Below, in pieces: positions 1,700 through 34,031 of a stretch of DNA of 34,031 nt (positions within the stretch are counted from its first letter, which is position 1; each line of letters opens with the position of its first letter). The position numbers and the translations under genes are program-made. The notes under the pieces were generated by a model. The model ran no database searches. It was given only the letters and a program-made list of their open reading frames with translations, and was not told the DNA's origin. This DNA comes from a virus. The stretch spans positions 1 to 34,031 of the IMG/VR virus record IMGVR_UViG_3300033148_009360. One strand, 5' to 3'.

Positions 1700-2203
1700 A
1701 TGTCTAAGCGATCGGAAAAATTAGACCCTCGCCAACTAAGCTTCGATTTTGACAAGAAAATCGAGGAATACACCTCCCTTAGATCCGAATTAATCAACCC
1801 TCCTGCAGCCCCCAAAAAAATCGAGAGCTGTGAGGAGGCTTGTATTGAGATCGCGGCCGCTATAAAGCGGGCGATCCGGGCCTCAGGGATGAGTCGAGAG
1901 GAGATGGTTGACGCCATCAATGAGTTCTTTGGCTGGTCCCCTGGGGGTCGAGGGAAGACATTGTCAATACATATGCTTAATCACTACCTGAGTAAGCCTG
2001 CCGCATATCCTATACCTACCTTTTACCTGTTTGCGATCCAACATATAACAGGCTCCTTGGAGCCCACCCGCGTCCTGGCAGAGGCCGAAGATGCCCGGAT
2101 TATCTCGGGAGACGAGGTGAGGCAAATGGCGTTGGGTAAGCTGGACGAGACGATCCTGGAAATGCAAAGGTTAAAGCGCGAGCTGAGGGGACGGAGGAGA
2201 TGA
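1700..2203 (+). CDS. Conserved early protein upstream of the transposase, function unknown
   Basis: The protein has 167 residues, soluble and charged. A helical segment (AIRASGMSREEMVDAINEFF, about residues 55-75) resembles a helix-turn-helix, followed by a conserved-looking LNHYLSKPAAYPIPTFYLFA segment and a basic C-terminus (LKRELRGRRR). Proteins of this kind sit between ner and the transposase in several Mu-like prophages of deltaproteobacteria, from memory, without known function. The stop overlaps the transposase ATG (ATGA at 2200-2203), indicating coupled expression. A role in transposition or early regulation is plausible only from position. Confidence 0.65.
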   Translation: MSKRSEKLDPRQLSFDFDKKIEEYTSLRSELINPPAAPKKIESCEEACIEIAAAIKRAIRASGMSREEMVDAINEFFGWSPGGRGKTLSIHMLNHYLSKPAAYPIPTFYLFAIQHITGSLEPTRVLAEAEDARIISGDEVRQMALGKLDETILEMQRLKRELRGRRR

Positions 2204-4419
2204 AAGAGCGTGCTGCGAGGATGGCCCAATTGTATGTGCCGTGGGTTACGGTGCGCTTAATTGCAGAGGTGTTAGGGGTTACGGAAAGAACAGCGCAAAG
2301 ATGGGCTAAAAAGGAAGGGTGGAAAGGGATAAAACTGAATAAACGCGGAGATACAGTCTATTTCTTTGAAACTCTCCCTCCAAACATCCAGAAGGCTCTG
2401 GCGGCTAAAGTGGATGTGTCTCCCGCGATAATTCCTGAGCTTGCCCCGGAGGCGGCCCTGGAGCCGGCTAAAAAGATTATAAACACTCCTACTATTAAAG
2501 GAATAGCAAATACCATGCCAGACTGGTCCCCCGAACGGGCGATCGGTCCGGACGTGATGCGTAATAAAAATGTTGAGAAGTGGGCCCGAATCGTCCAGGA
2601 GGCTCAGGCCGTGCCCCCTGGGTGGAAAAAGAGGGCCTGGATGGAAGCCGTGGCGGCGAAACACGGCACCACGTTTCAGACCGTTTACCGCCGCATCAAA
2701 CGCTACGAGGAAGCGGGCCTGGCAGGGCTCGTCCAGACCAAGCGCACCAAGGGGTCTCCCAAGGCCTGGGACGACCAGGCCCTGGACTGGTGGATCGGCC
2801 TGGTGCTCAAGCGGGAGCACCGCAAGATCGACCGTAGGGTCCTCTACGGGATCCTTTGCCAGGAGGCGGCTTCCCAGGGCTGGCGGATCGGCTCGTATGA
2901 ATCGGCCCTGTGGTGGCTCAAAAAAAAGGTGACTCCGCAGCTCCTGGCCCTCCAGCGCGGAGGCCTCCGTGCCCTTGACAACACCCTGCCGCCGGTGCTC
3001 AGGGACTACTCGGATCTCGAGCCTTTCGAGATCCTGGTGGGCGACCAACACAGGTTCGATTTTTGGGTCGTGGACGAGGAGACCGGCGAGGTGTTCCGGC
3101 CGGAGGGGTACTTCTGGCAGGACCTCCGGACCCGTCTGTTTTTCGGCGGGGCCCTTGACCGCAAGTATGACTCATATCTGATCGGCCTGGCCCTGCGCAT
3201 GGGGCTCATGGTGTACGGGGCATTTGGCTCCATCTACACCGACTGGGGTAAACCCGAGACCAGCCGCTACCTCATGGGCATCATGAGGGACATGCGGACC
3301 ATCGGGCTTGGAGTTGAGCGAGAGGTTGACGCCCCACTTGGGGCTGATGGAGACCCGGAGGAGATCAATCCCCTTGCCATCATTCCCGGGACCCACAAAA
3401 AGGCCATCGTCCGCAACGCCAAGGCCAAGATGATAGAGGGTACATTCAGTACGCTCGAGGGTATTCTCCGGAGCGAGTTCCGCGTGCCCGGGTACGTCAA
3501 GGACCTGGGCGGTCCGGCCGAGGAAAACGAGGTCGACCAGAAAGAGATCGAGCGCCTGGCCAAGGCGGGTAAGCTCCTGACGTTTTGGGAGTTCGCCAGA
3601 GTCGTAATGCGCGCGATGGATTATTACAACAATGAACGGCCCCACCGGGGTGTCCGGAAGGAGTGGAGGGGCCGGCCGAGGCCCAAGGCTCCCACCCCGA
3701 TGGACGCCCTCAGGAATTGCTACACCCGGGGCTGGCGGCCCGGGCCGGTCTCACAAGAGGCCATAGACCTCATCTTCCTGCCCTCCGCCCGGCGCACCGT
3801 AGACCGCGGCCGCATCACATTCGAGCGAGAGTACTACGAGCACGATGCCCTGGTTACCCTGAACGGCGAGAGGGTTGAGTGTCGCTATGACCCGCTCGAC
3901 CCGGGCTGGCTCCTGGTCTTCCGCGAAGGCCGCTATCTTTGCACGGCCCGTCCCGTGGAGTACAGCTCCATGAAGGACCGCGAGCTTGCCTCGCGCAAGA
4001 TCCATGAGAAGCGCAGGCGGCGCAAGGGCTTTATCCTTGAGTACAAGCGTTACACAAGCGCAATACCTGATTTCAGGCGGTTTTCCAAAGTGCCTGCCAT
4101 TGAGAAGGCCGCCGCCTTGGTGGGCAAGGAAAAGCGGCGGCGCCTTGAGGAGCGGAAAAAGCTTGCTGAACCCACAGCAGAGGAAATCCAGGCTGCAGTT
4201 GAGCGGATCGAGAACTACCGCCCCGCGCCGGTCCGGCCGATATTTGCGAGCAAGCGCGACCGGTACCAATGGATCCTGGAGCAAGAGGCCGCGGGGGCGC
4301 GATTAAGAGAAGAGGACCTGGCCTTCAGGGCCGACTTTGAGTCGTCCCTTGATGACGATACAAGGGAGTATTGGCAAGTCTACAAAGAGGGCTTGAGGAT
4401 ACAGGAGGCCGCAGGATGA
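2200..4419 (+). CDS. MuA-type DDE transposase
   Basis: The 739-residue protein carries out strand transfer for integration and replicative transposition. Residues about 1-70 are the Mu-type winged-helix enhancer-binding domain (EVLGVTERTAQRWAKKEGW). Residues about 110-240 hold the end-binding helices (KHGTTFQTVYRRIKRYEEAG). The catalytic core has D282 (ILVGDQHRFDF), D348 (SIYTDWGKPETS) and E413 (AKMIEGTFSTLEG), spaced like the Mu A triad, followed by DYYNNERPHRGV. A beta-barrel and a basic C-terminal tail that would contact the ATPase follow. Length is slightly above Mu A (663). The stop overlaps the start of the MuB homologue. The tandem sites at 33867-33910 are its likely right-end targets. 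No catalytic residue is missing, so it appears functional. Confidence 0.95.
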   Translation: MKERAARMAQLYVPWVTVRLIAEVLGVTERTAQRWAKKEGWKGIKLNKRGDTVYFFETLPPNIQKALAAKVDVSPAIIPELAPEAALEPAKKIINTPTIKGIANTMPDWSPERAIGPDVMRNKNVEKWARIVQEAQAVPPGWKKRAWMEAVAAKHGTTFQTVYRRIKRYEEAGLAGLVQTKRTKGSPKAWDDQALDWWIGLVLKREHRKIDRRVLYGILCQEAASQGWRIGSYESALWWLKKKVTPQLLALQRGGLRALDNTLPPVLRDYSDLEPFEILVGDQHRFDFWVVDEETGEVFRPEGYFWQDLRTRLFFGGALDRKYDSYLIGLALRMGLMVYGAFGSIYTDWGKPETSRYLMGIMRDMRTIGLGVEREVDAPLGADGDPEEINPLAIIPGTHKKAIVRNAKAKMIEGTFSTLEGILRSEFRVPGYVKDLGGPAEENEVDQKEIERLAKAGKLLTFWEFARVVMRAMDYYNNERPHRGVRKEWRGRPRPKAPTPMDALRNCYTRGWRPGPVSQEAIDLIFLPSARRTVDRGRITFEREYYEHDALVTLNGERVECRYDPLDPGWLLVFREGRYLCTARPVEYSSMKDRELASRKIHEKRRRRKGFILEYKRYTSAIPDFRRFSKVPAIEKAAALVGKEKRRRLEERKKLAEPTAEEIQAAVERIENYRPAPVRPIFASKRDRYQWILEQEAAGARLREEDLAFRADFESSLDDDTREYWQVYKEGLRIQEAAG

Positions 4420-5096
4420 AAGACGTGTTCATCTCCACCGGGAACTTCCAGAAGTTCGAGGCTGTTTTCAACGACTTGCGGGCCAACCGCTACGGGGTCG
4501 ATATGGCCGCGGCAATAGGCCGGGCAGGCCGCGGCAAGACAACCGCCTGTCAACGGCTGGCCACCCAGTATGCAGAGGCAATCTATGTCAGGCCGCTTGA
4601 CTTCGGCTCGCCCGTGGCGGTGCTGCGCGAAGTGGCCTTTGCGGTTGGTGGTGTGCGGCCCCGCGCCACGGCCGCCTGCTATGATGTCATGAAATCAGAG
4701 CTGTCGAACGGGGCCCGCGTCATTATTGTTGATGAAGCTGATCGCCTGGGCCTCAAGCATCTGAACGCCTTACGCGATGTATCGGATCACTTCACCGCCC
4801 CCGTAATCCTGGTGGGAGAAGAACCCCTGGCCCACAAGCTGCGCCAGGAGCGCAGGCTCTACTCACGCCTTCGCGACACTCTGACTTTCGGGCCCATCAC
4901 ACCGCCGGACGTGCTCTTCTTCTACCGCCGCGCCCTTAGACAGGCTCTCACGCCGGCCCAGTCCGCGAGGTTGGCTCGGCATGGCGAGGGAGATTTTCGG
5001 TTGGTCATAAAAGACGCCCTGAAAGCTGAGCGCATTATGACGGCCACAGGCCTCAAGGAAATCAACGATCGGGTAGTGGACGAGGTGTGTAAATGA
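4416..5096 (+). CDS. MuB-type AAA+ ATPase, target-DNA activator
   Basis: The protein has 226 residues from ATG 4416, chosen because AGGAGG at 4403-4408 is well spaced and the ATGA overlaps the transposase stop. Walker A is AIGRAGRGKTT (about residues 33-43) and Walker B is VIIVDEADRL (about 102-111), followed by a sensor-like VILVGEEPL. Mu B binds DNA with ATP, selects the target and stimulates MuA. The family is shared with transposon Tn7/IS21-type ATPases. The C-terminal helical part (GEGDFRLVIKDALKAE) is typical of MuB-like proteins. It is placed directly after its partner transposase. Confidence 0.92.
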   Translation: MKDVFISTGNFQKFEAVFNDLRANRYGVDMAAAIGRAGRGKTTACQRLATQYAEAIYVRPLDFGSPVAVLREVAFAVGGVRPRATAACYDVMKSELSNGARVIIVDEADRLGLKHLNALRDVSDHFTAPVILVGEEPLAHKLRQERRLYSRLRDTLTFGPITPPDVLFFYRRALRQALTPAQSARLARHGEGDFRLVIKDALKAERIMTATGLKEINDRVVDEVCK

Positions 5097-5942: not shown

Positions 5943-6370
5943 GCTACTCAAGTAAAGTTCTTGCGGTTCTTACGCGGCACGTGGGGCGGGAGAACGCCAT
6001 CGGCATGGGCGAGCTCTACGCGCGCGTATACGGCCGCCCCTGGCGGAACCGCATTAATGACACGCGGGAGCTCCGCCGTATCATCACGGAGCTCCGCTAC
6101 GACGGGGCCTTGATCGGAGAGACCCGGTCCCGCCAGGGGGGCGGTTATTATCTTGCCCGCTCCACCTCGGAGCTCGAGGAGTTCTTCTCCCGGCGGACCC
6201 GGGAAGCGATCAAGAAGCTCTACATGGTCTCCAGGATGAAGAAGATCGCCCTGCCCGAGATGCTCGGGCAACTGAGCCTGGAGCTCCAGGCCTGCCTGCC
6301 GTCCGCAGTCAGGCAGGCCTGCCTGCCGTCCGCAGTCAGGCAGGGAGGGGAGAAGGATGGAGCCGCGTGA
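5939..6370 (+). CDS. Winged-helix early protein with repeat-derived C-terminus
   Basis: The protein has 143 residues. Residues about 5-75 look like a winged helix (ENAIGMGELYARVYGRPW, then TRELRRIITELRYDGALIG, and the wing RQGGGYYLARS). Residues after about 115 are encoded by two head-to-tail copies of the palindromic repeat (ACLPSAVRQ twice), which extend the frame and add a non-family tail. It overlaps the previous gene by ATGA and the next by 14 nt. It is likely an early DNA-binding protein with no specific function recognised. The natural C-terminus without the repeats was probably near LELQ. Confidence 0.65.
   Translation: MSYSSKVLAVLTRHVGRENAIGMGELYARVYGRPWRNRINDTRELRRIITELRYDGALIGETRSRQGGGYYLARSTSELEEFFSRRTREAIKKLYMVSRMKKIALPEMLGQLSLELQACLPSAVRQACLPSAVRQGGEKDGAA
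6290..6344. repeat. Two head-to-tail copies of the GCCTGCCTG palindromic repeat
   Basis: Each copy has arms GCCTGCCTG and CAGGCAGGC around the 11-nt core CCGTCCGCAGT. Copies start at 6290 and 6317; the 27-nt period equals nine codons, so the host reading frame is preserved. The same unit recurs at 7865, 8239 and 8774, which points to a mobile or actively copied short repeat family. Confidence 0.9.
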
Positions 6371-7542: not shown

Positions 7543-8092
7543 TTGTGAGACATGGCTCGAGGCCAATACAATCAAATGCCCCCTCGGCCGCGTGAGCCTC
7601 AAGCAGTGCGAAGCCCTGCGCCGGCGGCCGCGGTACGAACCCGGCGGGGCCGGGCTTTACAGGCCCGAGGCCTGTGAGGGGTGCACGGTTTGGGAGGACA
7701 AGATGCCTGAACAGCTAAAGAGGTGCTCGAAATGCGGGGAAGAAAAACCTGTAAGCGAGTTCTATCGCGACGCGAGGGCGCGCGATGGCCTGAAATCCAG
7801 GTGTAAGGAATGTTACGATGCAGCGCGCCGGCCCGACGGTCAGGCCTGTCTGCCGGCCAGGCAGGCCTGCCTGCCGTCCGCAGTCAGGCAGGCGGGGAGG
7901 CGTAATCCCCCGCATGGGGAAGAAACGTCCCCTATGCGATGCTCCAAGTGCGGGCGCAGCCTGCACTGGGTCAATGACGACCAATCATACGTGGAGGGAC
8001 ACTACTCCACGCCGGATGGCGTCTACTGCATGGCCTGCTATGACGCCCAGGGCGGAGCCTTGTGGATGCGGGCCTTTGGTTTCGAAAAATGA
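7529..8092 (+). CDS. Multi-zinc-ribbon early protein with internal repeat linker
   Basis: The protein has 187 residues and three Cys clusters: residues about 17-52 (CPLGRVSLKQC, then CEGC), about 66-93 (CSKCGEEKPVSEFYRD and CKECYDA, a ribbon often attached to phage HNH proteins) and about 137-168 (CSKCGRSLHW, then CMAC). The second and third are separated by a repeat-encoded linker (ACLPARQACLPSAVRQ). GGAGG at 7690-7694 followed by an in-frame ATG around 7703 could start a shorter product. The protein may be a fusion of small ribbons, partly created by repeat insertion. The start GTG 7529 overlaps the previous gene. Confidence 0.5.
   Translation: MDQVDCETWLEANTIKCPLGRVSLKQCEALRRRPRYEPGGAGLYRPEACEGCTVWEDKMPEQLKRCSKCGEEKPVSEFYRDARARDGLKSRCKECYDAARRPDGQACLPARQACLPSAVRQAGRRNPPHGEETSPMRCSKCGRSLHWVNDDQSYVEGHYSTPDGVYCMACYDAQGGALWMRAFGFEK
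7844..7893. repeat. Variant plus canonical copy of the palindromic repeat
   Basis: A shorter variant (7844-7866, core CCGGC) is followed directly by a full canonical copy (7865-7893). Both sit in frame inside the multi-zinc-ribbon gene between two Cys clusters. Confidence 0.85.
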
Positions 8093-8343
8093 TGACCGAT
8101 TGGAAATTTTACGCCGACGAATTAATGAGCGAGGAGTGCTGGTGCGGCAGGGAGAAGAGGCGGCACTACTCATTCTGCTGGCGATGTTACAGGAAATTGC
8201 CGGCCGATCTACAGAAGGCCCTGTACCGGAAGATCCCCGCCTGCCTGCCGTCCGCAGTCAGGCAGGCCTGGCTGTCGGGCAGGGGCGAGGGATACGAAGA
8301 TGCTTATGAAGAGGCGGTAAAGTATCTGGAGACTGTCTCATGA
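8089..8343 (+). CDS. Small zinc-finger phage protein interrupted in frame by a repeat
   Basis: The protein has 84 residues from ATG 8089, which overlaps the upstream stop (ATGATGA context). CWCGREK and SFCWRCYRKLP form the zinc site; the C-terminus is GEGYEDAYEEAVKYLETV. Between RKI and the GEGYE segment the repeat encodes about 15 residues (ACLPSAVRQA and flanking). Related phage proteins, from memory, run directly from the LP helix to a GYExAY helix, so this looks like an in-frame insertion tolerated in a loop. The role is unknown. Confidence 0.6.
   Translation: MMTDWKFYADELMSEECWCGREKRRHYSFCWRCYRKLPADLQKALYRKIPACLPSAVRQAWLSGRGEGYEDAYEEAVKYLETVS
8239..8267. repeat. Single canonical palindromic repeat
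   Basis: Arms GCCTGCCTG and CAGGCAGGC surround the CCGTCCGCAGT core. It is inserted in frame within the small zinc-finger gene. Confidence 0.9.
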
Positions 8344-8912
8344 TGAAATGCCCTTACTGCTCAAAAGAATTTGACCCGCGTGAGGCCCAAGCCGAGGCCG
8401 AGTGGCGGGAGATCATCGCCCTGCTGCCGGCGTTCGGTCCCCACTCGCGGCTGGCCTTTGAGTATTGCGAAAAATTCGGGGTGACCCCGCTCCGGATCCG
8501 GACGAAGAAGCTGTTGCGGCTCCTCGGGGAAGTGGCGGCATTGTTCCGCGGTGAACGGTTTGCCTACAACCGTAAAGAGTACCGGATCAGCGGGGCGGGC
8601 ATCGCCGAGGCCCTGAAAACCGTTTGCAACAAGCATTTCGATCGGCCGCTCGAAAACCACAATTACCTGAAAAAGGTAATGATATCCATATCGGAGCGGG
8701 AGGCCAGGGAGCGGAGCATCCGGCAGGAGCGGGAGCTCCGCAAAAGGGAAGAGCTGCTCAGGGGCGGGATCCGGCCTGCCTGCCGTCCGCAGTCAGGCAG
8801 GCCTGACTGCGGACGGCAGGCAGGCGGGGAGGAGGGCGGGATATCGGCCGAGGAGTACAAGCGCCGGGCGGGGATCCGGAGCCTGGCCGAGATGGTGAGG
8901 GGAATGGAGTGA
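8340..8912 (+). CDS. Early protein with N-terminal zinc finger, function unknown
   Basis: The protein has 190 residues. It begins MMKCPYCSKEFDPREAQ, half of a zinc ribbon, followed by helical sequence (LLPAFGPHSRLAFEYCEKFG, then KKLLRLLGEVAALF) and a long coiled coil (residues about 115-145). Residues about 145-162 are encoded by the inverted repeat pair at 8774-8825. The tail ISAEEYKRRAGIRSLAEMV appears to be the genuine C-terminus resuming after the insertion. The ATG overlaps the preceding stop. Proteins of this type occur at the end of the early region in related prophages. A replication or regulatory role is only a guess. Confidence 0.6.
   Translation: MMKCPYCSKEFDPREAQAEAEWREIIALLPAFGPHSRLAFEYCEKFGVTPLRIRTKKLLRLLGEVAALFRGERFAYNRKEYRISGAGIAEALKTVCNKHFDRPLENHNYLKKVMISISEREARERSIRQERELRKREELLRGGIRPACRPQSGRPDCGRQAGGEEGGISAEEYKRRAGIRSLAEMVRGME
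8774..8825. repeat. Inverted pair of palindromic repeats, 24-bp perfect arms
   Basis: Arms 8774-8797 and 8802-8825 are exact reverse complements with the 4-nt spacer CAGG. One full repeat is followed by a nearly full copy in opposite orientation, inside a coding region and in frame. Confidence 0.92.
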
Positions 8913-14625: not shown

Positions 14626-16188
14626 ATGATCCTTGATCAGTTCGGCAGGAAAATAAAGACGAGCACACGGCCCGAGCGGCGCGGGATCGCTGCAGTCTCC
14701 ATCCGGGATCGCTGGAGCGGATATCCGTCGGAGAGGCTCACGCCCGTGCGCCTGGCCCGGATATTCAAGGCCGCGGACCAGGGCGACGTATACTCCCAGG
14801 CCGAGCTCTTCGAGGAGATGGAAGAGAAGGACACGCATCTCTCCGCGGAGCTCCTGAAACGCAAGAACGCGGTAAACGCCCTGGACTTCGAGATCGTGCC
14901 CTACGAGGAGGGCCTCAAGGGCGCGCAGCGGCGGAGGGGGAAGAGCAGGCCTGATAAGGTCTGCGACTTCTGCCGCGACGTGATCTACTCCATGCCGACC
15001 TTCGAAGACTCGCTATTCGACCTCCTCGACGCCGTCGGCAAGGGGTTCGCGGCCCTGGAGATCATGTGGGACACGGACGGCGGCCGCGCCGTGGCGGCGG
15101 AGCTCAAGTGGATCCACCAGAAGAAGTTGATATTCACCGAGACCATGCACCCGCGGCTGGTAACCGATGGCCACCCCACGGGCGAAGTCATCCCGCCCTT
15201 CAAGCTTGTCTACCACCGCCACAAGGCCCGCAGCGGGTACGACACCCGGGCCGGGCTGCTGAGGGTGTGCGCATGGATGTATTTGTTTAAGAACTACTCC
15301 CTGAAGGACTGGGTGGCCTTCAGCGAGGTGTTCGGAATGCCTCTGCGCCTCGGCAAATACGACCCGGGCGCGAGCAAAGAAGACAAGGGCGCCCTGGTGG
15401 CGGCCATCCGCTCCCTGGGAAGCGATGCGGCCGGCATCATATCGAAAAGCACGGAGATCGAGTTTGTCCAAGCAGTAAAGGGCGCAAGCGGCGAGCTGAT
15501 TTACAAGACCTTGGCCGATTTCTGCAACCGCGAGATGTCCAAGGTGATAATCGGCTCCACACTCACGACCGACGTGGGAGACAAGGGGTCGTATGCGGCC
15601 AGCAGGACCCACAACGAGGTGAGGCTCGACCTGGTCAAGTCCGACGCCTGGTCCCTGGCCAACACCCTGCGCATGCAGCTCTTGCGCCCCCTGGTGGGCT
15701 TCAACTTCGGGTGGGACACCCCGGTCCCCTGGTTCCGGTTTCAGCTCCAGGAGCCCGAAGACCTCAAGCAATTGTCAGAGGTCTACAAGAACCTCGTGGA
15801 AATGGGGCAGCCCGTATCTGCCGAGCATGTGAGTGAGCGGTTCGGTGTGCCGCTCCCGGAGGAGGGCGAGACCATTATCACGCCCCAGGGGCGGGGGACG
15901 GCCGTGGCGATGAAGCGAATTACGGCAAAATCGGGCCTCACGCCGCGAGAAGAAGGCCCGGCCGATACATTAGAGGCGCTGGGGCGAAAAACGCTCTCAG
16001 CGGCCAAATTTGACGGCCTCATGGGGCCGGTGGAAGAGCTGCTCGGGTCCGTATCGTCCCTGGAAGAGTTCCGGGACCGGCTCCTGGATCTCTACGCCGA
16101 CATGGACGAGTCGGAGGTGGGAGACCTCATGCAGCGGGCCCTGACCCTCGCAGATCTATCGGGGAGGTTCGATGCCGCCGAGCGCTAA
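14626..16188 (+). CDS. Portal protein (Mu gp29, DUF935)
   Basis: The protein has 520 residues. Family features are the start LDQFGRKIK, LFEEMEEKDTHLSAELLKRK near residue 65, GKGFAALEIMWD, YLFKNYSLKDWVAFSEVFGM and STLTTDVGDKGSYAASRTHN. The dodecameric portal forms the DNA entry vertex and docks the terminase. Its 3' end overlaps the head morphogenesis gene by 17 nt, as is common in Mu-like phages. Confidence 0.93.
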   Translation: MILDQFGRKIKTSTRPERRGIAAVSIRDRWSGYPSERLTPVRLARIFKAADQGDVYSQAELFEEMEEKDTHLSAELLKRKNAVNALDFEIVPYEEGLKGAQRRRGKSRPDKVCDFCRDVIYSMPTFEDSLFDLLDAVGKGFAALEIMWDTDGGRAVAAELKWIHQKKLIFTETMHPRLVTDGHPTGEVIPPFKLVYHRHKARSGYDTRAGLLRVCAWMYLFKNYSLKDWVAFSEVFGMPLRLGKYDPGASKEDKGALVAAIRSLGSDAAGIISKSTEIEFVQAVKGASGELIYKTLADFCNREMSKVIIGSTLTTDVGDKGSYAASRTHNEVRLDLVKSDAWSLANTLRMQLLRPLVGFNFGWDTPVPWFRFQLQEPEDLKQLSEVYKNLVEMGQPVSAEHVSERFGVPLPEEGETIITPQGRGTAVAMKRITAKSGLTPREEGPADTLEALGRKTLSAAKFDGLMGPVEELLGSVSSLEEFRDRLLDLYADMDESEVGDLMQRALTLADLSGRFDAAER

Positions 16189-17413
16189 GTACATGGACCT
16201 GCCCTTTGACGAGGCGATCGAGTACTTCCGTCGGAAGGTCAACCTGCCGACCCGCAGTTGGCGGGACCTGTGGGAAGGCATGCATTCACGGGCCTTTGTG
16301 GTGGCGGGAGCGATGAAATCGGAACTGCTCGCGGACCTCTATGATGCTGTAAACAGGGGAATCAAAGAGGGCACGACCCTTGAGGCATTCCGCGAGGATT
16401 TCGACAAAGTCGTCCGGCGCCACGGCTGGAAGTACAAGGGCGGCAAGGGCTGGAGGACCGCGGTGATCTTCAACACGAACCTCTCGGTGGCCTATCACGC
16501 GGGCCACCACAAGCAGATGACCGACCCGGACGTACTCCGCGCTCGCCCCTACTGGCGGTACGTGGCGTCATCTTCGGCCGAGCCGCGCCCCGAGCACATG
16601 CGCTGGTACAACGTAGTGCTCCCGGCCGACGATCCCTGGTGGAAGACCCACTACCCGCTCAACGGCTGGGGCTGAAAATGCGGAGTGGTGAACCACTCCG
16701 CCCGTGAGGTGGAAAGGCTGAAAAAGCAGGGCGAGGACATCAGGGAGCAGGCCCCCGATGACGGCCATTACGAGTGGACCAACCCGGACACGGGCGAAGT
16801 CCTGCAAATACCCAACGGCATTGATCCCGGGTGGGCCTACAACCCGGGGGAGGCCGCGTGGGGGAGGAAGATTGCAAAAGACGCTATGGATGCCTGGCGC
16901 GCCCAAGGCGCCAAGGCATGGGAAAGGCTTACCCCGGGGAACTGGGAAACATACGGCAGACCGGCCAAAATCCCGGTCGATGTACCAAAAGCCAGCGTGG
17001 GGCCCGCATTGAACACGGTTTCTGCAGCGGTGCGGGCGGTCAAAAGGATGCTGGGCGGCGAAGAAAAGGTGTTTTCGTTCCACAGGGGCCCTTTTCGATA
17101 CGACGTGCTGGTAAACGCATCGAGCCTGGCCGAACACGTTGACCTTAACAGATCGGGGTTTTTGCCCTTTTTGCCCGAAGTCTTGCAAGATCCCTATGAG
17201 ATCTGGCTGAGCTTCGAGCGGCATAAGGGGACTGGCAAGGTTGTTTTGCGGCAACGGATTATCAAGGCAGTGCGTTTGGACAAAAATCGGGGCGTGCTTC
17301 TTGTGGCGCAGTCTAAAAATGGCGTCATGGAGGCATGGACGATGGTCCCGACTTCTGATTTCAAGTACTTGAACAGGCAGAGACGGGGCAAGCTGGTATG
17401 GGCACGGCAATAA
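16172..17413 (+). CDS. Mu gp30 (MuF) head morphogenesis protein with in-frame TGA, fused to a PBECR2-like domain; candidate selenoprotein
   Basis: Read as one frame the product has 413 residues, close to Mu gp30 (about 430). Residues 1-167 are the MuF domain (LPFDEAIEYFRRKVNLPTRS, and RHKQ-type helices) ending at NGWG. Codon 168 is TGA (16673-16675), exactly where this family normally has the first Cys of NGWGCxC; the next codons give KCGVV, so the second Cys is kept. The frame continues with Mu gp30-type sequence (IPNGIDPGWAYNPGEAAWG), then residues about 301-396 resemble the PBECR2 nuclease-like domain of polyvalent phage proteins (FLPEVLQDPYEIWLSFERH). A perfect hairpin follows the TGA. 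The most economical reading is Sec insertion; a recent nonsense mutation or sequencing error is the alternative. The product would act in the prohead and may be delivered with DNA. Confidence 0.75.
16673..16701 (+). promoter_or_regulatory. Candidate selenocysteine codon and SECIS-like hairpin
   Basis: The TGA at 16673-16675 is followed after 4 nt by a perfect 9-bp stem, 16680-16688 (GCGGAGTGG) with 16693-16701 (CCACTCCGC), and the tetraloop TGAA with G at loop position 2. Bacterial SECIS elements lie just 3' of the UGA within the reading frame and carry a G early in the loop. The 13-nt distance to the loop is slightly shorter than in E. coli fdhF, and no bulged U is seen. Confidence 0.6.
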
Positions 17414-18091: not shown

Positions 18092-19113
18092 GAATGTTTG
18101 CGAGTACATGTGCAGGCAAAGACATGGGCGGTAACCCGCCCGAGTGGTTTCAGGTGTTCCCGGCGGGGCGGGTCGAAATCCTGGACGACGATCCCGCGCT
18201 GATGGACGAGGAGGCGGCGCAAGCAGTGATCCGGCGTTTCAACGGCCTGGGGCACGACATGGTGATCGATTACGAGCACCAGACCCTGAGCGGCGAGCGG
18301 GCCCCTGCCGCCGGGTGGATCACGGAGCTCGAGTGGCGGGGCGACGAGGGGCTCTGGGCCCGGGCCCGGTGGACCGAGGACGCGGCCGGGTATCTCTCGC
18401 GGGGAGAGTACAGGTATTTCAGCCCGGTTTTCGTGGTCCGAAAGCCGGACCGCCGCATCATCGAGCTGTACAACGTTGCGCTGACCAACCAGCCGCGAAT
18501 GAAGAACCTCCGCGCGCTGGTTGCAAAACACCAACCCGAAAAGGGAGGAGAGGAGGAAGGAGAAATGCTCGAAAAGTTGAAGAAATTATTGAACTTAAAG
18601 GACGATGCCGGCGAAGACGAGGTCCTGGAGGCCGCAAAGGCCCTCAAGGCTAAGGCAGCCGACGGGCCGGCAAAGGACGCTCCAGCGGCCTGCAAAGAGG
18701 TGCTGGACGCCCTGGGGATCGAGGGGGAGCCTGACAAGCAGACGGTGGTCTCCAAGATCGAGGCCCTGAAGGCCCCGGCGGGCGTGGCCGAAAAGCTGAG
18801 CCTCGAGGTGGCGGAGCTCAAACGCACCATCGCCAAGATGAAGCAGGATGACCTGGTGGAGCGGGCCCTGAAGGAAGGCAAGATCTCGCCCGAGGAGCTG
18901 GAGGCCTGGGGCCGGGACCTGGCCGAGAAGAGCCCCGAGCAGTTTGAAAAGATCGTGCTCTCCCGCCCCGCCGGCAGCGTAATACCGGTGGAAGGGCTCA
19001 AGCCCAAAAAAGAAGACGATGACAAGACGGACGAGGTCCAACTCAGCATCAACAAGATGCTTGGGATCGACGAGGAGACCTGGAAGAAGTACGGCCCGCA
19101 GGCGGAAGCGTGA
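18088..19113 (+). CDS. Head maturation protease and scaffold (Mu gpI-like)
   Basis: The protein has 341 residues. The protease domain spans about residues 10-150 (PPEWFQVFPAGRVEIL, MVIDYEHQTLSGERAPAAGW, YFSPVFVV, LTNQPRMKNLRAL), matching the Mu I prohead protease. The rest is Glu/Lys/Ala-rich helical scaffold. Mu I cleaves scaffold and itself during prohead maturation. An in-frame ATG at 18565 with a strong ribosome site suggests a nested scaffold product as for Mu Z. The heptamer array starts directly after its TGA. Confidence 0.9.
   Translation: MRMFASTCAGKDMGGNPPEWFQVFPAGRVEILDDDPALMDEEAAQAVIRRFNGLGHDMVIDYEHQTLSGERAPAAGWITELEWRGDEGLWARARWTEDAAGYLSRGEYRYFSPVFVVRKPDRRIIELYNVALTNQPRMKNLRALVAKHQPEKGGEEEGEMLEKLKKLLNLKDDAGEDEVLEAAKALKAKAADGPAKDAPAACKEVLDALGIEGEPDKQTVVSKIEALKAPAGVAEKLSLEVAELKRTIAKMKQDDLVERALKEGKISPEELEAWGRDLAEKSPEQFEKIVLSRPAGSVIPVEGLKPKKEDDDKTDEVQLSINKMLGIDEETWKKYGPQAEA
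18565..19113 (+). CDS. Nested scaffold protein (Mu gpZ-like), internal start
   Basis: An in-frame ATG at 18565 is preceded by GGAGGAGAGGAGGAAGGAG-type sequence (18544-18562), the strongest ribosome site in the late region and oddly placed inside a gene. The 182-residue product is the charged, helical C-terminal part of the protease gene (MLEKLKKLLNLKDDAGEDEV onward). In Mu, gene Z is nested in I in the same way and encodes the scaffold. The product is inferred, not shown. Confidence 0.7.
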   Translation: MLEKLKKLLNLKDDAGEDEVLEAAKALKAKAADGPAKDAPAACKEVLDALGIEGEPDKQTVVSKIEALKAPAGVAEKLSLEVAELKRTIAKMKQDDLVERALKEGKISPEELEAWGRDLAEKSPEQFEKIVLSRPAGSVIPVEGLKPKKEDDDKTDEVQLSINKMLGIDEETWKKYGPQAEA

Positions 19114-19197
19114 AACGTGAGACGGGAGACGTAAAACGTGAGACGTAAAACGTGAGACGTAAAACGTGAGACGTAAAACGTAAAACGTAAAACGTAA
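19114..19197. repeat. Array of twelve 7-bp units
   Basis: Twelve tandem heptamers of the form (G/A)ACGT(A/G)A fill the gap between the protease gene and the cement protein gene, with a mostly alternating GACGTAA / AACGTGA pattern that becomes uniform AACGTAA at the end. It begins right after the stop codon and ends next to the ribosome site of the following gene. It is not CRISPR-like. Confidence 0.95.
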
Positions 19198-19211
19198 AAA
19201 GGAGGCGAAAG

Positions 19212-28338: not shown

Positions 28339-29130
28339 ATGATTATTCTGCCCGCAGGAGCTTCAAAAAATTCGTGGACGGCCTGGGATGAGCAATCAGA
28401 ATTTACTCTTGATGTGGACCAGGATGGTGATGGCAACGGGGATACCTTTATCTGCTTCTTCGAGAACCCTACTACTGGAGGTGATGAAACCGGGCGTGGT
28501 GGCGGACTGAGTGGTAGTGATTTGGTATTAACACAAGCTGGTAACATAGCAGGAGCAACAGGCTCTCCACCGACAAGATACACAGATGGCAGTGATGACA
28601 GTTTTAATTTGACCACTAATTTTGCAAAAACATTATTTATCAACACTACGTGGACAATCATTGCAAAAGGGAGAGATGTCAAGCATGGAAGTGGAAGTAA
28701 CAACATAAGTAATATATGCCAATTCTATGGGAATTCAGCAGGGAATCGTCGTTGTGGAATTTCGATGGTCATTGACTCAAGTGAACCAAACCAGGTTTTA
28801 TCCACATGGGGCTACAACGCCATAGATGACACACAAGCTGCTACGGTAAAAACAACAGCAGCGGTCCCAACAACAGGAGACGTTTATTTTATCCACGAGT
28901 GGGATGGAACAACCAGGAGGATGGGTTTTTCTACCACAAAACCCACGTCTTGGGATGACATTCCGTCTTCCCAAAAAATAACTTTGAACATTGGAGGAAA
29001 TTATACTGACCCCGTTTCGTTTGATCAGTATGGAAGAAGGTTTTTTAATGATTATAACGGCGGTAATGCAATAGAAGGGTACTTTTACTATGTTATTGTT
29101 AGCAAAGTACCATTATTGTCAGGAACTTAA
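28339..29130 (+). CDS. Probable receptor-binding/fibre protein, AT-rich
   Basis: The protein has 263 residues, rich in Thr, Ser, Gly and Asn. TLDVDQDGDGNGDTFICFFE contains an Asp-rich calcium-type loop. The later part (TLFINTTWTIIAKGRDVKHG, VYFIHEWDGTTRRMGFST, EGYFYYVIVSKVPLL) suggests a concanavalin-like jelly roll. Codon use is clearly more AT-rich than its neighbours, indicating recent acquisition, as expected for a host-range determinant. Confidence 0.6.
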   Translation: MIILPAGASKNSWTAWDEQSEFTLDVDQDGDGNGDTFICFFENPTTGGDETGRGGGLSGSDLVLTQAGNIAGATGSPPTRYTDGSDDSFNLTTNFAKTLFINTTWTIIAKGRDVKHGSGSNNISNICQFYGNSAGNRRCGISMVIDSSEPNQVLSTWGYNAIDDTQAATVKTTAAVPTTGDVYFIHEWDGTTRRMGFSTTKPTSWDDIPSSQKITLNIGGNYTDPVSFDQYGRRFFNDYNGGNAIEGYFYYVIVSKVPLLSGT

Positions 29131-29144
29131 TAGGAGCCCAGGAA

Positions 29145-29183
29145 GATGCCTCAATGGATAAAGTTTAAGTTGATCGAGCCTTA
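29145..29183 (+). CDS. 12-codon mini-ORF with ribosome site
   Basis: ATG 29145 to TAA 29183 encodes MPQWIKFKLIEP, preceded by AGGAG (29132-29136) and GGAAG. It may be a remnant of a fibre gene or a leader. Its reality is doubtful. Confidence 0.25.
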
Positions 29184-29206
29184 ATGCGGCATGAGGAGGG
29201 CGAGCG

Positions 29207-29695
29207 ATGTGGAAATTACCTGATGGCCGGATTATCAAACACCCGCAGCCGATTGAGGCGGATGGCGTGCGCCATCCCCGGGACATATTCGTCCGCTGGT
29301 CGGACGAGGAGCTCGCAGGAATCGGTATAAGGCGTATAGTGGCAGACGAGTACGACCACGAGCATTATGTCGCGGTATCGCACAAAGACGTGGAGCGGGA
29401 AAACAAGGTGTGGCGCACATATAAGCTCGCGCCGCGCTATACTCTGGAGGAGCTCCGGACCCGCAAGGTCGAGCGAGTAAAGGTCCTTGCACGGTCACTG
29501 CTCGCCGAGACCGACTGGATGGTGATCAGGGAGGCGGATGACCCCGGCCGCCCCGTTCCTGCGGCGGTGAAGGTGTATCGCGATGCCATACGCAAAGCGT
29601 CTGACGCCCTTGAAGAGGAAATCAATAAGGCGGATTATGCGACTCTCAGCAAACTCGATGTTGTCAAAAGACTCGAAGCAATAAAGATCCAATGA
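29207..29695 (+). CDS. Fibre-region protein, possibly assembly chaperone
   Basis: The protein has 162 residues. The N-terminal half (WKLPDGRIIKHPQPIEADGV, then RHPRDIFVRWSDEELAGIGI) is followed by a basic helical half (RKVERVKVLARSLLAETDWM, VIREADDPGRPVPAAVKVYR). A DWMV/T..R.AD...P.P....YR pattern is common in phage tail fibre assembly proteins and pre-neck appendage chaperones. GGAGGG lies upstream. The stop overlaps the next short gene. Confidence 0.6.
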   Translation: MWKLPDGRIIKHPQPIEADGVRHPRDIFVRWSDEELAGIGIRRIVADEYDHEHYVAVSHKDVERENKVWRTYKLAPRYTLEELRTRKVERVKVLARSLLAETDWMVIREADDPGRPVPAAVKVYRDAIRKASDALEEEINKADYATLSKLDVVKRLEAIKIQ

Positions 29696-29865
29696 TCGAC
29701 GCGAGAAACAAGTTGAAACTATTCCAGGTGCCGACCAGGGGCAAGACTCCCGCTGAAGCACCTGTTGATTCCATCCTCAAGGCCTCTTTGACGGCCCGAG
29801 AAGTGGAGGTCGAGGTTCCGGAGCGCAATGATTGGCATTTCCGGACCATTGATGGGAGACCCTGA
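29692..29865 (+). CDS. 57-residue fibre-region protein
   Basis: This short gene starts at ATG 29692 (ATGA overlap with the upstream stop) and its TGA shares a base with the next ATG at 29865. The product begins MIDARNKLKLFQVPTRGKTP and ends NDWHFRTIDGRP. Overlaps on both sides argue that it is translated. No family is recognised. Confidence 0.55.
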   Translation: MIDARNKLKLFQVPTRGKTPAEAPVDSILKASLTAREVEVEVPERNDWHFRTIDGRP

Positions 29866-31310
29866 TGAATTTATCCGCGACCATTAGGGCGCAGACTGCC
29901 ACGACTAATGCGCCTTTTGCCATGCTTCGCTCGCTATCGTCGAGGGTAGCCGGGACAAGCCAAACATCCGTCTCATCGCTCGCGGCGCTCCGGCTTTTGG
30001 CCGCGGAAGTGGAAGTTGGGGCGCAGGAGGGGTCTGTTACCATCTCTAATTTGGCGGTCTCAACAGGCAAGGATTATGAGGTGGTGGCAGGACTTGATGA
30101 TGGGGTTAGGGCATACATTGACAGGAACTACCAATATTCCGATATCCCGTCCTTCCTGAAAGGCGCAACCTATATTCGGACGTCATTTGACGATCGGTAC
30201 AACGAGGATAGCGATTTTTTGCAATTCGACGTGGATCAGGCAACGACTGTTTATGTTGTCCATGACGATTTGACTCCCCTTCCGGGATGGATGTCGGGGT
30301 TCGAGGATACGGGTAAGGATTTGAGTATAATTTTCCCGGACATGAGTGTCTATTCAAAGGATTTTCCGGCAGGGCGAGTCGTTCTTGGCGGAAATGCCAC
30401 CGGATATCGGATGTATACTGTTGTTATTCCGGCTGCTGGAGGGGGACAATCCCAATCTTCAACTGCTCCGCTCGCGGTGCGGCGGGATCTGCAGGCAGGG
30501 GTCGCGAGCGCGGTGGAATCAGGCGAGGCGGGGCTCGCGGTGCGACGGGATCTAAATATATTAGCAGCTTCGATGACATCAACTTCCGCTATAATGCTTG
30601 CTGTTCAGGGCCTGATCAATTTGGCGGCTTCGATTATGGCGCGGACCAACATTTTACCCCCTCCCCTCGCTATCCGGCGGGATTTAACGGCCCAAGGGGC
30701 GGTTGGTACCCGGTCTTCCCAGCCCCCTTTATCGGTCCAAAGGGAGATGGTTGCGGCCCTGTTTGCAGGCAGCACTACAGGTAATCCTGATCTTGCCGTC
30801 AACAGGGCGCTATCGGCAGGCCTCACTTCTCAATGTGCCGCCTCAACCCCTGGGTTATCGGTTTTAAGAGAGCTGTTTACATCAATCGCTCCGACAATAT
30901 ACACCTCTACTGCCACCCTGGTTATCCAGGGGTTAATCAATTTTGCGGCCATGATTGCGGCTCAGGCGGCAACCTCGTCGCCTGAGCTTGATGTGGCCAG
31001 GCCAATGTCGGCCGATGTGCAAGGAGGAGTTGCCACTTCAACATCAACGCTTGCAGCCCTGCGCGATCTGCAGGCAGCGGTCACGAGCGCGGCGGAATCA
31101 GGCGAGGCGGTTTCGGAGGTTTTAAGGAGCCTTTCGGCCGGGATTGACGCCCGAAGCTTTGCTGCCGCAATTGCCCTTATAACGGGAGGGCTCGGGGTTA
31201 TCCTGGATCCGACCATTGAGTCGCTCACGCCCGCAAGGAGGATCGAGTCCCTGACGCCGGCGCGGACCATTGAATCGCTCACGCCCAGAAGGACGGTCGA
31301 GCAAATCTAG
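29865..31310 (+). CDS. Tandem-repeat adhesin with inserted beta domain
   Basis: The protein has 481 residues. About eleven repeats of 21-23 residues share the pattern L(A/S)V(R/Q)R.L.A......S; examples are PLAVRRDLQAGVASAVESGE and LAVNRALSAGLTSQCAASTP. They are interrupted by residues about 64-205, a beta domain (VRAYIDRNYQYSDIPSFLKG, LQFDVDQATTVYVVHDD, YSKDFPAGRVVLGGN) of a type found in secreted carbohydrate-associated proteins. The C-terminus has three ESLTPxR repeats. It is likely a fibre or receptor-binding protein. Confidence 0.6.
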   Translation: MNLSATIRAQTATTNAPFAMLRSLSSRVAGTSQTSVSSLAALRLLAAEVEVGAQEGSVTISNLAVSTGKDYEVVAGLDDGVRAYIDRNYQYSDIPSFLKGATYIRTSFDDRYNEDSDFLQFDVDQATTVYVVHDDLTPLPGWMSGFEDTGKDLSIIFPDMSVYSKDFPAGRVVLGGNATGYRMYTVVIPAAGGGQSQSSTAPLAVRRDLQAGVASAVESGEAGLAVRRDLNILAASMTSTSAIMLAVQGLINLAASIMARTNILPPPLAIRRDLTAQGAVGTRSSQPPLSVQREMVAALFAGSTTGNPDLAVNRALSAGLTSQCAASTPGLSVLRELFTSIAPTIYTSTATLVIQGLINFAAMIAAQAATSSPELDVARPMSADVQGGVATSTSTLAALRDLQAAVTSAAESGEAVSEVLRSLSAGIDARSFAAAIALITGGLGVILDPTIESLTPARRIESLTPARTIESLTPRRTVEQI

Positions 31311-32885: not shown

Positions 32886-33023
32886 GGAGCAGGCAGGGAG
32901 GATGGCGGCCTCCCCACGACCCGATGCTGCCACATCGGATCACCCGATACCGGGCCTGCCCCTGCGGCCGCGCGGCCATTGGGGATTTACCAGACCCGGA
33001 TTGAGATGTCAAAGGGGAAGGAC

Positions 33024-33782
33024 ATGCGGAGTCCACTGCCATACATTGGCGGCAAGTCTAAACTTGCAAAGACAATAATCGAGATGGTCCCAGAGCACAA
33101 AACATATTGCGAGGTTTTTGCAGGCGCCGCTTGGGTCTTTTTCCGAAAAGATCCTTCGCGGTACGAGGTAATCAATGACCTCGACAGCGACCTTGTCACT
33201 TTCTATCGCGTCCTTCAAAACCACCTGGAGGAGTTTTTGAGGCAATTCCGCTGGATTCTCTCCTCCAGGGAATGGTTCGAGGATTGGAAACGACAGCAAG
33301 AGGCCGGAGGCTTTACGGATATCCAGCGCGCTGCGAGATACTATTATTTGCAGCGGCATAGTTTCGGCGGCAGGGTTCGGTCACGCACGTTTGGGACGGG
33401 CCCCATGCATCGTCCCCGTATCAACCTCCTCCGCCTCGAGGAGGAACTCTCGGAGGTCCACCTGCGCCTGGCTGGTGTCACCATCGAGCATCTGCCCTGG
33501 CAGGATTTCGTGAGGCGCTACGACCGCTCAGGGACCTTCTTCTATCTCGACCCGCCGTATTACAAGGCCCCTTATTATGCACACAACATGGATCTCAGCG
33601 ACTACAGGGAGATGGCGGATATCCTGGCCGGTCTCAAGGGTAAGTTTATATTGAGCATCAATGCTCATCCAGATATGGTCGAGATATTTAAGTGTTTTAA
33701 GTCCCGGAATGTCTCGCTGAAATATTCAATAAACAAGGGCGGTCTGAAGGAGGCGAGAGAGCTTCTGATTAGCAACTTTTAA
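33024..33782 (+). CDS. Dam-type DNA adenine methyltransferase (D12 class)
   Basis: The protein has 252 residues from ATG 33024, behind GGGGAAG. SPLPYIGGKSKLAKTIIEMV is the AdoMet-binding motif I, NDLDSDLVTFYRVLQ and RFSF-type segments follow, and DPPYYKAPYY (about residues 178-187) is the catalytic motif IV. GATC specificity is usual for this family but not certain. The 138-nt gap before it contains a small CCGATG / CATCGG hairpin. It lies at the right end like Mu mom and may protect phage DNA or alter regulatory sites. Confidence 0.88.
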   Translation: MRSPLPYIGGKSKLAKTIIEMVPEHKTYCEVFAGAAWVFFRKDPSRYEVINDLDSDLVTFYRVLQNHLEEFLRQFRWILSSREWFEDWKRQQEAGGFTDIQRAARYYYLQRHSFGGRVRSRTFGTGPMHRPRINLLRLEEELSEVHLRLAGVTIEHLPWQDFVRRYDRSGTFFYLDPPYYKAPYYAHNMDLSDYREMADILAGLKGKFILSINAHPDMVEIFKCFKSRNVSLKYSINKGGLKEARELLISNF

Positions 33783-34031
33783 CTGTAAAATTCACTGTAA
33801 GTCGCCCTGCCGGAAGGGGCTCGCCCGACCGGACAGGTTTTCTGTACCCTGCGGAAGGACACATTTTTTTGTCGCATTTTATCTTACATTTTGTCGCATT
33901 TTATCTTACAACCGACATAAGTATTTCACCTGAAAACCATTGCCTGCACCACCGGGAGAAGGGGCATGGGGATCTTTTCGGAAGTGACCTGTTGGGAGGC
34001 CTTCGTTATTTCATGGGGTTAGGGATGGGGG
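33783..34031. other. Right end region and host flank
   Basis: Between the methyltransferase and 33866 lies a GC-rich stretch with a GCCGG-type hairpin (33810-33835) and the motif ACTGTAAAATTCACTGTAAG, similar to the left-flank sequence at 226-245. After 33917 about 114 nt of probable host DNA contains no recognisable gene. Confidence 0.4.
33867..33917 (-). repeat. Tandem MuA-type end-binding sites and candidate right terminus
   Basis: Two perfect 22-bp units sit head to tail at 33867-33888 and 33889-33910 (each ends GTCGCATTTTATCTTACA), followed by ACCGACA. The right end of Mu has R2 and R1 sites in similar arrangement and with related TCGCATTTATCGTG sequence, a few bases from a CA terminus. 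The phage end is therefore probably at 33917, with 33918-33922 (TAAGT) as the expected 5-bp duplication. Confidence 0.65.

Follow-up and report, generated by a model that had tools for sequence, protein, structure and literature searches.

Does a TGA codon inside the minor head protein gene of a Mu-like phage end the protein, or is it read as selenocysteine (Sec)? The window, i.e. the whole stretch of DNA analysed here, is a 34,031-nucleotide viral record (IMGVR_UViG_3300033148_009360) with the gene content of a Mu-like phage. It encodes a MuA-type transposase and a MuB-like protein (2200-5096), as well as a terminase, portal, MuF, tail-completion or neck protein, head protease, major head protein and tape measure. 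The gene in question (16172-17413, plus strand, stop included) encodes the MuF or Mu gp30 minor head protein, with 413 amino acids if TGA is counted as Sec. The ATG start lies at 16172 and the single in-frame TGA at 16673-16675 (plus strand) is codon 168. The original prediction of a long open frame beyond this codon is confirmed, as 245 codons follow up to a TAA stop at 17411-17413. Gene prediction with the standard code cuts the protein at 167 amino acids.

The MuF gene and its phage

The gene was proposed to be a Mu gp30 homologue with an NGWGCxC motif, and domain searches as well as the cysteine found at this column in relatives agree. The Pfam domain Phage_Mu_F covers residues 56-172 (16337-16687, plus strand), ends in the NGWG-U-K-C motif (U for predicted Sec) and matches with 51.7 bits against a curated cut-off of 29.6. 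Ten other Sec members also exceed this cut-off. PHROG 220, described as 'minor head protein and DNA pilot', spans residues 3-412. The C-terminus carries a PBECR2 nuclease-like domain at residues 295-410 (17054-17401, plus strand; Pfam, 73.1 bits, cut-off 27.1), the translation of which requires read-through of the UGA. The portal protein gene (14626-16188, plus strand) lies directly upstream and overlaps the MuF start, which is the usual order in the head module of Mu-like phages. NCBIfam searches of the protein gave only an SPP1 gp7 match below threshold, and a sequence search against PDB gave no useful match. The AlphaFold model of the protein is confident (pLDDT 93), and a Foldseek comparison of the model with PDB returned no significant match.

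The record shows several additional features. By eye, the last open reading frame (32979-33782) looks like a gene for a Dam-type adenine methyltransferase. Copies of a dispersed palindrome (GGCCTGCCTGCCGTCCGCAGTCAGGCAGG with variants; 6262-6358, 7837-7906, 8238-8307 and 8773-8842) are inserted close to or within the termini of several early open reading frames, where they encode 'ACLPSAVRQ'-like peptides, and look REP/MITE-like. A 14-nt tandem repeat (AAACGTGAGACGTA; 19092-19203) lies between the head protease gene and the head gene that follows it. Near the right end of the record, a 22-nt repeat (TTTTGTCGCATTTTATCTTACA) is present in two perfect adjacent copies (33867-33910). Repeats at the ends of Mu-like phages can serve as sites for the transposase, and these copies might play this role here.

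TGA codons in the C-x-C motif

The codon aligned with TGA168 is TGC or TGT in most of 80 related viral loci, and an in-frame UGA aligned with cysteine in homologues is a hallmark of selenoproteins. When 63 relatives are aligned and TGA is treated as Cys, positions 168 and 170 do not vary, and neither do Arg139, His142, Trp157, Asn164, Gly165 and Gly167. Asp153 and His160 are nearly invariant in the MuF alignment. The same TGA is found at this column in three contigs from other samples that are 85-87% identical to the window (L001-L003), as well as in two loci placed elsewhere on the tree (L042 and L043, 49% identical). Chance or a read error as the source of the TGA was rejected, given that the three close contigs and dozens of more distant MuF genes share it.

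Two loci, L004 and L005, have TGC (Cys) at the codon-168 column and the same downstream hairpin sequence as L001. L004 nests within the TGA clade of the window. The TGC codons likely reflect reversion, i.e. a recent change from Sec to Cys that left a relic SECIS, with recombination as the alternative. Because both loci carry TGC with the same hairpin, Sec appears to be useful yet dispensable.

The recurrence of TGA was assessed by scanning 2.9 million viral contigs with the back-translated motif Pro-x-Asn-Gly-Trp-Gly. When TGA occupies the first Cys, MuF genes account for 22 of 23 matches (one interrupted by a contig end), and for 7 of 9 with the Gly-Tyr/Phe-Gly form of the motif. TGA at the second Cys, which in the window is the TGC codon of Cys170 (16679-16681, plus strand), yielded 14 MuF genes among 17 matches. 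Where both Cys codons are TGA, three of four matches are MuF and represent two distinct proteins. In total, TGA-form MuF genes at the two Cys codons were found in 46 viral contigs and 2 cellular genomes. The cellular scan covered genomes of about 85,000 species and produced 16 matches, of which two are MuF (L112 from Desulfobacteraceae and L121 from Nitrospirae) and 14 lie in unrelated frames. Samples of about 395 genomes from each of these two host phyla contained no additional TGA MuF, with the matches in G515 and G544 attributable to chance.

Controls in the same viral contigs yielded no MuF gene. TAA or TAG at the first Cys gave two chance matches and at the second Cys none at all, and TGA at the motif Trp gave four chance matches. 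The Trp control is the fairer one since TGG, like TGY, is a single base from TGA, whereas TGY to TAR requires two changes. The UGA is thus shared by several independent sequences, and the controls bear this out. The original prediction had suggested a search for homologues; those carrying TGA and those carrying Cys both exist in number, and the TGA recurs in independent assemblies. This supports the central claim of a phage head protein using selenocysteine in a Sec-x-Cys arrangement. The MuF tree requires 12 or more switches between Sec and Cys, and 7 or more of these fall on branches with good support.

Some members of the family deserve separate mention. L167/L169 and L168, from two unrelated MuF lineages, have the sequence TGA-AAG-TGA with both motif cysteines replaced by TGA, which predicts a Sec-x-Sec pair. 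In L092, residues 334-425 beyond the TGA show a weak match to an ADP-ribosyltransferase (21.1 bits, just below the cut-off of 22.3), suggesting that C-terminal modules differ among Sec MuF proteins. The MuF gene of the Thermus phage Riverbug was suspected to be split and was found to be intact.

Candidate SECIS hairpins

Bacterial SECIS elements are modelled with a loop of 3-9 nt, a G within the first two loop positions, a stem of 4-16 bp, a UGA-to-loop distance of 16-37 nt and a minimum free energy (MFE) of -7.5 kcal/mol or lower (PMC13188914). The hairpin UCCGCC-CGUGA-GGUGGA of the window (16697-16713, plus strand) falls within all of these limits, with 6 bp, -10.8 kcal/mol, a loop beginning 27 nt past the UGA and the G at loop position 2. 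The corresponding distance in CxU genes is 21 nt. Across 16 of 16 aligned relatives of the UxC, CxU and UxU types, 100% of the cells of the stem are paired, a percentage that is flattered by the structure having been proposed from these same 16 sequences; the compensatory changes are not affected. Two-sided changes occur at three of the six pairs. None of 500 shuffles scored as high, and slid controls are at most 49% paired. In L148, two C-G pairs became G-C and a G-U became A-U around an unchanged CGUGA loop, and in L100 and L112 another stem pair changed to G-C and U-A. The loops AGGUCA (L094) and AGGUA (L155) belong to the G-G/U type described by the bacterial model.

The model fits 34 of 37 distinct Sec genes versus 19 of the 57 homologues with Cys (Fisher p 7e-9). 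This value is optimistic given that the sequences are related, although the tree requires 12 or more switches between Sec and Cys. Redrawing synonymous codons leads to an expected fit of 50% for Sec genes and 36% for Cys genes; Sec genes lie above their own expectation and Cys genes do not. Three of the 37 Sec genes miss the limits. By eye, L158 and L161 carry GUGUCA-GGUC-UGACAC just under 16 nt from the UGA and are hence scored as failing. In tests on single sequences, the hairpin proved no rarer than is allowed by synonymous recoding (window p 0.15). Only the comparison between groups is persuasive. An Rfam search of 16500-16900 gave no relevant match.

The original prediction assigned the signal to a different structure, a perfect 9-bp hairpin starting 4 nt after the TGA. 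This hairpin does exist at 16680-16701 (plus strand; GCGGAGTGG-TGAA-CCACTCCGC), overlaps the one at 16697-16713, and the two are mutually exclusive. Of 200 dinucleotide shuffles of the 81-nt region containing it, only one folds as well (z -2.7). The importance attached to this hairpin did not hold up, since it is not conserved among TGA relatives whereas the overlapping hairpin is. The hairpin at 16697-16713 is likely the SECIS because it is fully paired with compensatory changes, while the 9-bp hairpin, with 75% of cells paired in relatives, does not rise above shuffles and is probably an alternative fold rather than the signal. The short UGA-to-loop distance noted early on as a weak point does apply to the 9-bp hairpin, whose loop lies 13 nt from the UGA against the 16-nt minimum (PMC13188914), and disappears for the conserved hairpin; the concern arose because the wrong hairpin had been picked. 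We consider it unlikely that Sec is inserted under the direction of the 9-bp hairpin, or that both hairpins form a switch, even though the 9-bp hairpin is the more stable fold of the window sequence and is kept in L001-L003, L090 and L112, given that it is broken in L097, L100, L139 and L148.

Decoding, function and relation to known systems

Hosts are identifiable for only two TGA-form MuF genes, L112 and L121, the window itself being a lone viral contig. The check for sel genes called for by the original prediction found SelA, SelB and tRNA-Sec in both. SelB scores 389.5 and 361.4 bits (cut-off 242.25), SelA 602.9 and 584.3 bits (cut-off 267.9), and the tRNA-Sec has the anticodon UCA in each genome. 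In the Nitrospirae genome, selB (28657-30510) is located on the same 72-kb contig as the TGA-MuF prophage, 18.5 kb from the TGA-bearing MuF gene (near 49045). The encoded SelB is full, with winged-helix domains, and its gene adjoins the RNase III (rnc) and ketoacyl-synthase (fabF) genes. About 2 kb from selB begins a run of HTH and AAA (MuB-like) genes, which is probably the left end of the prophage. Neither the window nor the loci of the Sec phages contain a tRNA-Sec gene, so these phages appear to rely on their hosts.

Other ways to account for the TGA fare poorly. Programmed read-through with an ordinary amino acid would yield a short MuF and, at a fixed ratio, a long MuF-nuclease fusion. 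The TGA of the window indeed falls between the MuF domain and the nuclease-like domain, and 3' hairpins can promote read-through. However, TGA codons sit exactly on the invariant cysteines, either one or both, and never on the motif Trp, nor are they ever replaced by TAA or TAG. Several TGA genes also lack a long C-terminal domain, with 63-95 codons after the TGA, and identifiable hosts encode Sec machinery, making ordinary read-through very improbable. Even less credible is a nonsense mutation, sequencing error or decay, in which case the TGA would really terminate the protein and the part beyond it would be a remnant or an independent gene beginning with the in-frame GTG at 16685. TGY does become TGA by a single base change, but the Trp codon is equally close and its control yields no MuF. 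The same TGA is shared with three relatives from other samples and many lineages, and the sequence beyond it is under purifying selection (dN 0.065-0.074 and dS 0.47 against L001-L003). A phage or host code in which TGA is always sense has nothing in its favor except the single TGA itself. TGA is the commonest true stop of the window, ending 16 of 33 genes, no other gene has an internal TGA and all other Cys codons are TGC or TGT. Reassignment across the whole code was thus rejected by stop usage, leaving it a negligible prospect.

We conclude that the gene very probably encodes a selenoprotein form of MuF/gp30, with the Sec machinery of the host reading UGA168 as Sec under the direction of the predicted SECIS at 16697-16713. 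Host SelA, SelB and tRNA-Sec would decode the codon and the hairpin would direct insertion, leading to NGWG-Sec-Lys-Cys where most relatives have NGWG-Cys-x-Cys. That Sec is actually inserted in the phage of the window is what we infer from the comparative sequence evidence.

To our knowledge, MuF proteins have no settled function. The U/C-x-C pair, perhaps together with the invariant His142, would form a redox-active selenenyl-sulfide or a metal site. A redox role carries about half of our expectation, a metal site somewhat less and other roles the small remainder. The redox reading is slightly favored because Sec may take either position or both. A mainly zinc-like ligand site with His142 is a possible but less probable reading, consistent with a C-x-C motif accompanied by an invariant His and the nearly invariant Asp153 and His160. 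It would be unusual for a structural metal site to carry Sec at one position, the other or both. MuF is thought to be injected with the DNA, and a selenenyl-sulfide might change state between cytoplasm, particle and new cell. We tentatively suggest, at slightly less than even confidence, a family of native phage virion proteins in which the C-x-C motif swaps Cys and Sec (UxC, CxU, UxU). Sec would have been gained and lost repeatedly along with Sec decoding by the host, and the motif would act as a redox switch that depends on selenium, either within the particle or in the injected pilot protein.

If correct, phage assembly or infection would be tied to the selenium status of the host and gene callers would be shown to cut short a core head gene. 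A MuF gene of the TGA form would likewise point to a host that decodes Sec. With CxC, UxC, CxU and UxU all occurring naturally, what the C-x-C motif does in MuF becomes open to direct tests. Phage, virus and capsid go unmentioned in two selenoproteome reviews (PMC13188914, PMC9312934) and in a selenoprotein-prediction paper, as does selenium in MuF papers (PMC5576092, PMC5512222). Among the open-licence papers searched, two captured poxvirus enzymes are the only viral selenoproteins named, in a recoding review (PMC8310308), and we found no phage selenoprotein. One may have been described earlier outside these papers. Phage head proteins containing selenium would likely be a new family.

Bacterial selenoproteins with an in-frame SECIS, such as E. 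coli FdhF (PMC13188914, PMC9312934), share with Sec MuF the Sec at a Cys position, the hairpin just 3' of the UGA within the reading frame, the abundant Cys homologues and SelA, SelB and tRNA-Sec in (identifiable) hosts. Sec MuF differs in being a phage head protein rather than a known cellular family, and may have Sec at either of two Cys positions or both. With Phage Mu gp30 (protein F) and SPP1 gp7 of the MuF family (PF04233, PHROG 220), the window protein has in common the domain, the gene order after the portal and the C-x-C motif, as well as the C-terminal PBECR domain found in Mu gp30 (PMC5512222). The predicted Sec at the first Cys sets it apart from both. In SPP1, one or two copies of gp7 accompany the portal (PMC5576092), and delivery into the cell has been suggested for MuF fusions (PMC5512222). 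Temperate phages also encode MuF polymorphic toxins, which likewise combine a MuF domain with a C-terminal enzyme-like domain, in an account that mentions neither cysteine nor selenium (PMC5576092). The glutathione peroxidases of the poxviruses molluscum contagiosum and fowlpox are also viral genes acquiring Sec through host machinery (PMC8310308). Those enzymes are captured host antioxidant proteins with a eukaryotic SECIS, whereas Sec MuF would be a morphogenesis gene native to the phage, with a SECIS of the bacterial type.
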